This document shows positions 114 through 14,610 of a DNA stretch of 48,290 nt, in pieces; positions within the stretch are counted from its first letter, which is position 1; each line of letters starts with the position of its first letter. The notes below the pieces were generated by a model, which saw nothing but the letters and a program-made list of their open reading frames with translations, was not told the origin of the DNA and ran no database searches. The stretch is taken from contig JANQLN010000114.1 of NCBI GenBank assembly GCA_028280575.1, positions 1 through 48,290 of the forward strand, written 5' to 3'. Position numbers and translations under genes: made by a program. This DNA is from Clostridia bacterium. Its GTDB lineage: Bacteria; Bacillota; Clostridia; Acetivibrionales; STF1-152.

Positions 114-270
114 ATTTCATTCTAACTTTTGGTAATATTTTGCATGCGTTTCTGCATTCCAGTGTACTTCCCAACTTTATTCAGTCCACTCTGGTAAGAT
201 TTTAACTCTAAAGACACATATGTATATGTGGGAGAAGATAATTTCAATACCACTCTGGTAAGATTTTAAC
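114..270 (-). CRISPR. Short decaying CRISPR array, three repeats and two spacers, type I-B-like repeat
   Basis: The best repeat is 241-270 (30 bp). Read on the minus strand it begins GTTAAAATCTTACC and ends GTATTGAAAT, and the ATTGAAA-type 3' end is typical of clostridial I-B repeats. A second copy at about 178-206 shares the 20-bp core exactly, with one deletion and a few changes at its 3' end. A third, strongly decayed copy lies at about 114-143 (it keeps ATTTCA and GGTAATATTTT). Spacers are 207-240 (34 bp) and about 144-177 (33-34 bp). Decay increases with distance from the leader on the right, as expected for the old end of an array. No cas genes are in the window, so any processing would depend on a locus elsewhere. 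The leader, regular period (62-64 bp) and spacer length support the call; the low copy number is the main caution. Confidence 0.75.
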
Positions 271-472
271 CCCATTACAAAATCGGGTAAAAAGCTCTTA
301 AAATAAGAGCTTGCTTTCTAATTTCATACCTTTTTTGTCGTCAACCTCTCACAGTGCAAAAAAGCCAGGGGCTCGACGACACCAGTAATACCAACGCTTG
401 TAGAGCCATTTTATACTATTTTACTGGTTTTTGTCAACCAGTATTTTCTTCATTTTCATGACCTCGACGACT
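271..472 (-). promoter_or_regulatory. CRISPR leader with promoter
   Basis: On the minus strand this stretch runs into the intact repeat. It holds TTGACA (437-432), a 17-bp spacer and TAAAAT (414-409), which would start transcription near 402. GTCGTCGAG occurs at about 472 and again at about 382, with a related inverted GAGGTTGACGAC near 335-345. These recurring GTCGTCGA elements are, as I recall, typical of clostridial CRISPR leaders. A 9-bp perfect hairpin (292-300 with 304-312) followed by a short T-run lies between promoter and first repeat. Confidence 0.6.
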
Positions 473-489
473 AAATCTTATTGTCGATA

Positions 490-1134
490 TTACAAACAAT
501 TTAGTATCTCAATTAATTCTCCCGGCCTAAAAATTATCATGTCAAACTCCTTGTAGTCTTCAACTTCACAATATCCATATGCCGCACCAACCGAAAATAT
601 CTGATTATATTTGGCAGCTTTTGAATCCTTCTTTCTGTCACCGACCATTACCCAGTTTTTTACCGGTTTGTTCTTTATAATGTTTGCTACCATAAGCTCT
701 TTATCAGGTTTGTTACAATGAATCTTTTCAAAAAATGGATGCAGTTCACATGCTCTTAAGCAGTCATCAACGTGTTCAAAATCTCCTGTACTTGCTATAT
801 ACATCTTATGCCCTCTTTTTGACAGGTCTTCAAGCAAATCTTTTACACCCTCAAAAAGCATACCTTTATTAATATCTTCAACAATCTTTCTTTCTGCTGC
901 TTCAACTTCTTTAGCAAAACCAATCAAGATTTTTTTATCTATATCCGGATAAATCTTATAATAAAAAAATGGATTCGCATATCCAACGGCAGCTTTAATA
1001 ACTTCATCTTTGGGCATTTCAAGCCCATATCCCTGGCACACTTTTTCAAATGCCGGAATGGCAATTTTTGCAGAATCAATCAGTGTCCCATCCATATCAA
1101 AAATAATATTAGTCTCATTTGTCATAATATCCAT
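490..1134 (-). CDS. HAD-superfamily phosphatase (phosphoglycolate phosphatase-like)
   Basis: A 214-residue cytoplasmic HAD hydrolase. Motif I is FDMDGTLIDS (nucleophile Asp13, acid Asp15), a helical cap follows, and the distal acidic motif is GDRKKD near residue 166. The length and the I-A-type cap fit phosphoglycolate phosphatase or a small sugar-phosphate phosphatase. The ATG at 1134 has GGGG about 10 nt upstream; an in-frame ATG three codons later is an alternative. It lies downstream of the PTS operon on the same strand but behind that operon's terminator, so it is probably a separate unit. The substrate cannot be read from the sequence; a phosphosugar is an inference from context. Confidence 0.85.
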   Translation of the reverse strand: MDIMTNETNIIFDMDGTLIDSAKIAIPAFEKVCQGYGLEMPKDEVIKAAVGYANPFFYYKIYPDIDKKILIGFAKEVEAAERKIVEDINKGMLFEGVKDLLEDLSKRGHKMYIASTGDFEHVDDCLRACELHPFFEKIHCNKPDKELMVANIIKNKPVKNWVMVGDRKKDSKAAKYNQIFSVGAAYGYCEVEDYKEFDMIIFRPGELIEILNCL

Positions 1135-14045: not shown

Positions 14046-14124
14046 GTATGGATATAGGCCACATTAAATATTTCATAAATTTATGATTGACAAAAATGTA
14101 AGGCAGCCATATAATATTCATATG
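14046..14124 (+). promoter_or_regulatory. marR-type gene promoter, possibly giving a leaderless message
   Basis: TTGACA (14087-14092), 17 bp, TATAAT (14110-14115): a perfect sigma-A promoter. The expected start of transcription, about 7 nt after the -10, falls on the ATG at 14122. CATAT (14108-14112) and ATATG (14120-14124) form an inverted repeat over the -10. GTATGGATA at 14046-14054 recurs inverted as TATCCATAC at 14708-14716, ahead of the ABC operon. The gap 13833-14045 shows no gene. Confidence 0.6.
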
Positions 14125-14610
14125 ATATACCGTAAAGATAATAAAAGTCTTGCATATGCTGTTTTGAACCTGGCGGAAAATTATCTGCGTCAGGAAAAAG
14201 AAACTCGTTACTATGGGACTGATGTTCCGATTTTCTATTCGGAAATCCATGTGCTTATGGAAATTGTCGATCATCCGGGAATCCATATTAATGGACTTGC
14301 AGAAGAATTAGACGTTACCAAAGCATCTGCTTCCGAAATGGTCAAAAAGCTGGAAAAAAAGGGTCTGGTTGAAAAGAGAATCGACGAGCGGAAACTTTCA
14401 AAACTGGCGGTTTATGCAACGGATAAAGGCAAGCTGGCACATGAAAATCATGTGAAATACCATGACAGGTTTGAACAAATGATTGAAAAACATGTCTCCA
14501 GTGGGACAGCAGCTGAAGTTGCGTTTTTACTAAAATTTCTTCATAACGTTGTCAAAGACCTTGACAAAGTGAATGAAGTAACGGTACATCAGGAAAAACA
14601 GAATAAATAG
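14122..14610 (+). CDS. MarR-family transcriptional regulator
   Basis: 162 residues from ATG 14122. The winged helix covers about residues 40-110: HINGLAEELDVTKASASEMV is the recognition region and KGLVEKRIDERKLSKLAVYATDKG the wing. Flanking helices give the dimer. An upstream in-frame ATG at 14083 precedes the consensus promoter and has no ribosome site, so I reject it. It is the first gene of the block that includes the ABC pair and Nik-type importer and probably represses both, since a shared 9-bp motif lies before its own gene and before the ABC operon. Its ligand may be the transported metal complex or drug (inference). Confidence 0.87.
   Translation: MIYRKDNKSLAYAVLNLAENYLRQEKETRYYGTDVPIFYSEIHVLMEIVDHPGIHINGLAEELDVTKASASEMVKKLEKKGLVEKRIDERKLSKLAVYATDKGKLAHENHVKYHDRFEQMIEKHVSSGTAAEVAFLLKFLHNVVKDLDKVNEVTVHQEKQNK

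Follow-up and report, generated by a model that had tools for sequence, protein, structure and literature searches.

The CRISPR systems most similar to the locus analysed here are those of type I-B with Cas1b (TIGR03641) and Cas7-Cst2 that are carried by clostridia and their relatives (genomes G045, G542 and G649). They resemble our locus in having 30-nt repeats that end in ATTGAAAY, a leader directly after the cas operon, a dyad of 44 bp within that leader and several arrays per genome, and they differ from it in that their cas operon is intact, whereas the genome studied here lacks the operon and its arrays hold one to four decaying repeats. The nearest to our repeat is GTTTTAATCGAACCATAGTGGGATTGAAAC, found in arrays of G542 and G649 (L104, L174 and L175, whose operon comprises Cas1b, Cas7-Cst2, Cas5, Cas3 and Cas6), with which it shares the core ACCATAGTGG and the end ATTGAAA. 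In these arrays the leader element is oriented as in our locus and likewise stands a short way from the repeat (44 nt; 63-65 nt in our genome), and in genomes with this repeat (L183; L185, 8179-16058) cas2 lies before cas6 and the leader after cas3, whereas in our genome the leader followed cas2. An incomplete leader of 65 bp beside an imperfect repeat has been described in Clostridium autoethanogenum, 10 kb from its arrays, and is comparable to our locus in that a leader and a degenerate repeat are stranded in a clostridial genome; that species, however, keeps active cas genes and three arrays, while the genome studied here appears to have lost its cognate set (PMC4022347). In the type I-A system of Sulfolobus islandicus a leader-proximal stem-loop is bound by Cas1 and a leader-distal motif by Csa3a, these being used for integration (PMC9456107). 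The arrangement of a distal conserved motif and a proximal hairpin is in outline that of our leader, but subtype and domain are different, the sequences are unrelated, and our element is a candidate binding site.

The stretch of DNA that we analysed, called the window here, is the whole of contig C66 (48,290 bases) from a genome of 4.35 Mb in 143 contigs with an estimated completeness of 99.09%. The array lies on its minus strand and begins with an intact, leader-proximal repeat at 241-270 (GTTAAAATCTTACCAGAGTGGTATTGAAAT, 30 nt), which has a single difference to GTTTAAATCTTACCAGAGTGGTATTGAAAT, the consensus over the genome. The second repeat, at 177-206, matches the first exactly over its first 21 nt and is damaged in its last third; the 21-mer common to both is the sole 21-mer in the 48 kb window that recurs at a spacing of 40-90 bp. 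Of the third only a decayed remnant is left (AAATATTACCAAAAGTTAGAATGAAAT, with a single gap, at about 114-140), whose score was equalled by 8 of 3812 controls (0.2%) for a 55-nt stretch at the expected place and by 10 of 1080 when the stretches were 176 nt long; a free search would not single it out, and its credibility comes mainly from its position. Between the repeats lie a spacer of 34 nt at 207-240 and one of about 33 nt at 144-176, giving a period of 64 nt that is close to the 65-68 nt of the sister arrays described below, as direct repeats with uniform spacers would. The conserved leader is at one side and the decayed repeats are at the other end. The original prediction of three minus-strand repeats (intact, damaged and decayed), two spacers of about 34 bp and decay increasing away from the leader is thus borne out, its coordinates being right within a few bases. 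We take the crRNA 5' tag expected from this array to be the 8 nt ATTGAAAT.

The suggestion that the spacers could reveal past encounters with phages or plasmids was followed up by searches, which gave no credible match. Neither spacer matched elsewhere in its own genome or gave a meaningful E-value among 50,697 phage records and 72,556 plasmids (best plasmid E = 2), spacer cores of 20-22 nt were without match in IMG/VR, and the spacers of the sister arrays gave chance-level matches only. The exact window repeat was likewise absent from a scan of GTDB contigs and IMG/VR, and the leader, sought in 60 relatives (none of the same genus), was present in the window genome only.

The window leader is 88% identical to two sister leaders in the same genome. 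It was predicted to have its own promoter, and a sigma-70-like TTGACA-16-TATAAA directed at the array is indeed found on the minus strand at 437-408 (11 of 12 positions; identical in both copies on contig C60); the prediction nevertheless omitted the most conserved part of the leader, which is a dyad element of 44 bp at 337-380 on the same strand (GTCGTCGAGCCCCTGGCTTTTTTGCACTGTGAGAGGTTGACGAC). The leader end between this element and the first repeat (271-336, minus strand) is kept in both C60 copies and in the copy on C35. Within it a hairpin of 9 bp at 292-312 (AAGCTCTTA...TAAGAGCTT), just before repeat 1, is present in all four leader copies and looks like an intrinsic terminator placed between promoter and array; Fervidibacillus halotolerans has an unrelated hairpin in the same position (L042, L043). 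On the other side, the left arm of the element occurs once more (GTCGTCGAGG, 462-471, minus strand), and this copy abuts the former cas2 stop codon in the window, as it does in both C60 copies, as if the element had once directly followed cas2, which is the arrangement of other genomes. What may be the last few codons of cas2, in a very short and decayed piece, occupies 471-491 on the minus strand and is weak taken alone, although a BLAST match to the cas2 tail on C60 extends to window position 491. The gene directly upstream of the leader (490-1134, minus strand) encodes a HAD-family hydrolase and is a neighbour outside the system. Elsewhere in the window, positions 1-78 hold the C-terminal end of an ORF interrupted by the contig start (...DEVAELLELPYNIVEKLQKEINPVN*; 25 residues, no Pfam match), and 14083-14610 encodes a 175-aa protein with a MarR/CARF-type regulator fold that weakly matches CasR, Csa3 and CARF-linked regulators in PADLOC (E about 1e-6), which is probably due only to the shared winged-helix domain.

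A search of the host genome with the repeat found it again, together with the leader, at three further loci, none of which has more than four repeats. C60:25231-25466 has the leader with a single repeat, C60:30754-31195 the leader with four, and C35:139-424 three repeats plus a decayed one, its leader being broken off inside the element's right arm. Short length and decay mark all four arrays. Seven repeats with at most three mismatches were found genome-wide, and the reversed pattern used as a control gave none. Both C60 copies preserve, immediately before the leader, the 3' end of cas2 (about 35 codons, ...GKIIDVNKDSVIIFKARDRKWLEKSVIGQEKQNTDNMI*), which matches Cas2 of the Cas1b operon of G045 (46% over 26 aa, E = 4e-7) and is far less similar to the genome's own two Cas2 proteins; the cas2 pieces of 36-38 aa gave no match in Pfam. 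A dispersed repeat of about 70 bp also lies just upstream of a C60 array (C60:31330-31399), with copies at 80-90% on C59:50695, C22:209 and C51:2705.

No cas gene was detected among the 25 window proteins with PADLOC and Pfam, in agreement with the predicted orphan or relic status of the array. Looking for cas genes elsewhere, which had been proposed as a check, brought up two complete loci, and these are the only places in the genome with a cas1 gene, but both have other repeats. The locus on C53 is a complete type I-C operon (Cas1c at 464 bits and Csd2, above cut-off) with the 32-nt repeat GTTGCCTCCAATACGGAGGCGTGGATTGAAAC, and that on C143 a complete type I-B operon (Csh2, Csh1, Cas5h) with the 37-nt repeat GTTGAAATACAAGATCCATTAAAATAAGGATTGAAAC; both repeats are dissimilar to that of the window. 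Cas1b (TIGR03641) had no match in the genome at E <= 1e-60, the two Cas1 proteins scoring 124 and 179 bits on this model against a cut-off of 304. The cognate operon of the window repeat was thus not found in the genome beyond the cas2 tails, and because about 1% of the genome is possibly missing and several contigs end beside the four arrays, it could sit in an unassembled piece.

Taking together the sister leaders and repeats, the foreign repeats at both cas loci and the lack of a Cas1b match, we consider it quite probable that the window holds an array, dead or dying, left over from what was once a type I-B system of the Cas1b kind with several arrays, and with a leader element that is a likely docking site for integration in relatives. 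The cas2 tails at two sister copies are the trace of a cas operon that formerly abutted the leader, and the likeliest history is the loss of the Cas1b operon followed by decay of the arrays: spacer acquisition would have ceased with the operon, and the arrays would then have shrunk, decaying from the leader-distal end. An array that is small and orphaned but still in use could instead be served in trans by the Csh-type I-B or the I-C proteins, since the operons on C143 and C53 have the main cas genes and repeat 1 and its promoter are intact. Processing by Cas6 and Cas5 is specific to the repeat, however, and the window repeat measures 30 nt with a TACCA/TGGTA stem where those of the two operons measure 37 and 32 nt; with all four arrays short and decaying besides, continued use seems to us very improbable. 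That the repeats are a chance tandem similarity and no CRISPR at all, as one might think because just two of the window's copies are clear, has a negligible probability: the seven genome-wide repeats against none in the control, the common leader and the cas2 tails speak against it, and the coincidental period that had been named as a possible refutation is excluded by the same repeats and leader.

The dyad element found in this relic consists of two inverted arms of 13 bp that flank an invariant TTTTT-CACT core. Searched as a pattern, it has one match in the window (one mismatch; 0.00 expected) and occurs in 7 of 391 genomes of the class, while controls were without match; in Fervidibacillus halotolerans it stands before two arrays, with one further copy on its own. 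A sequence model was then made from 14 copies, including that of the window, which as a training member scores 61.9 bits (E = 3e-12). This model matches 83 of 299 genomes of the phylum (about a quarter), with up to 10 copies per genome. We examined 99 copies with their flanks, three of which were truncated by contig ends. At 84 of the 99 sites the opposite strand has an array that begins at a distance of 96-145 nt, and at 8 an array lies on the same strand, so that 92 of the 96 readable sites lie at the leader side of an array; the remaining four are without array, although one is near a single decayed repeat. Solitary copies with no array nearby (L041 4786-4830 in F. halotolerans, L077 1501-1545 in G680 and L141 603-647 in G514) are possibly orphan leaders. 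The element also tracks Cas1b, a TIGR03641 match being present in 64 of the 83 genomes with the element, and missing from 19, versus 29 of 216 without it (odds ratio 21.7, p = 1e-25), an association that, like the spacing statistics below, is phylogenetically non-independent because leaders and cas genes have common ancestry. In Rfam the element was unmatched in any source and the loci of the window genome all remained below the gathering score; the sister repeats reached 25 bits on CRISPR-DR2 (cut-off 37).

Detecting arrays de novo from direct repeats alone, with 40 loci added, gave 86 opposite-strand and 18 same-strand sites, one ambiguous site and 29 unresolved ones, many at contig ends. 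Two architectures emerge. In the opposite-strand one (class A) the element lies about 96-146 nt from an array with repeats of the TACCTATRAGG type, and in the same-strand one (class B) it lies mostly 44, 53 or 63-65 nt from arrays with other repeats, an [ACG]CCTA repeat core being present at 86 of 87 opposite-strand sites and 1 of 19 same-strand sites (p = 4e-18). In G542 alone the arrays that it precedes have repeats of four or more types. The window copy, on the same strand as its array, 65 nt away and beside a non-CCTA repeat, belongs to class B in orientation and distance, and the 18 same-strand sites include it and one C60 copy. Its orientation is normal for its kind, since the loci with the nearest repeat (L104, L174 and L175) share it. 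An artefact of decay or a unique inversion was also considered for the window element, and is ruled out by 15 other same-strand sites of the same architecture.

The distances themselves are not evenly spread. Class A distances cluster near 108, 120, 132 and 144 nt with a best period of 11.8-11.9 (bootstrap 11.5-12.5; p about 5e-5 with jittering and one value per family), and class B distances cluster at 44, 52-54 and 63-65 nt, with two further at 123 and a best period of 10.4 (R = 0.75). Steps near one helical turn (about 10-12 bp) are an indication of a DNA site that keeps its register to the leader-repeat junction, although this evidence is suggestive only, given that the class A period exceeds the 10.5 bp of B-DNA and that the statistics retain any effect of shared descent. 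The open literature that we searched contained no description of the element's sequence or of phased leader motifs in type I-B; the most relevant comparative study of leader motifs, by Santiago-Frangos et al. (2021, Curr Biol 31:3515; cited in PMC9602844), may contain the element, and reportedly deals with phased upstream leader motifs that keep their register to the leader-repeat junction.

As for what the element does, a double-stranded DNA docking site for spacer integration in the intact relatives appears most likely. A leader-encoded RNA hairpin, for example a CRISPR-linked small RNA or a cis-regulator, would explain why the window copy folds better than its shuffles (z = -3.2) and why column pair 9-36, being TG, CG or TA, pairs on one strand only, while the co-variation of the outer arm pairs (GC/UA, UA/CG) fits a hairpin and a dyad bound by a dimer alike. 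The strand asymmetry is mixed, however: among 89 distinct copies pair 9-36 favours one strand (83 versus 50) and pair 11-34 the other (41 versus 80). In class A, moreover, the array promoter has the element upstream of it and on the other strand, the mean promoter-like signal is 9.4 toward the array but 7.1 toward the element (shuffles 7.8), fixed distances to the repeat are unexpected for an RNA gene, and the element has no Rfam family. We thus regard the RNA as improbable and prefer a DNA site because of the mixed wobble asymmetry and of promoter signals that point toward the array and not the element; a gene for an antisense RNA, transcribed from a promoter of its own, was also considered and is unsupported, there being no promoter signal toward the element. 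Only slightly better are the prospects of a site at which a protein would regulate transcription of the array or the cas genes and that has no part in integration. As a long dyad that adjoins the end of the cas operon and has promoters on both sides or on one, the element would suit such a regulator, yet the promoter comes after the element in class A and before it in the window genome, and the element keeps its register to the repeat and not to the promoter, the distance from the -10 box to the repeat being widely scattered.

If the element is a docking site for integration, it would be bound as double-stranded DNA by the integrase (Cas1b-Cas2-Cas4) or by an accessory protein with affinity for DNA, and since the element tracks Cas1b we infer that the binder to consider first is the integrase with Cas1b, or a partner of it. 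Held on a fixed helical face with respect to the leader-repeat junction, the bound element would direct new spacers into the first repeat. A wider proposal, which we put forward tentatively and would sooner doubt than accept, is that leaders of Cas1b-type systems across the phylum have in the dyad an undescribed module that is independent of the repeat. The integrase, or else a host protein, would dock on it in a set helical register, with two orientations that match two repeat classes, and the module would replace the IHF-dependent leader recognition of proteobacteria.

The relic array alone is ordinary, and the dyad element with its two architectures is the part worth following. To our knowledge, how spacer integration is aimed is poorly understood beyond the systems that use IHF, and the element is a concrete, testable candidate for aiming integration at the leader in the type I-B systems of Gram-positive bacteria. 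Its sequence model locates CRISPR leaders, orphan ones included, and gives their orientation.
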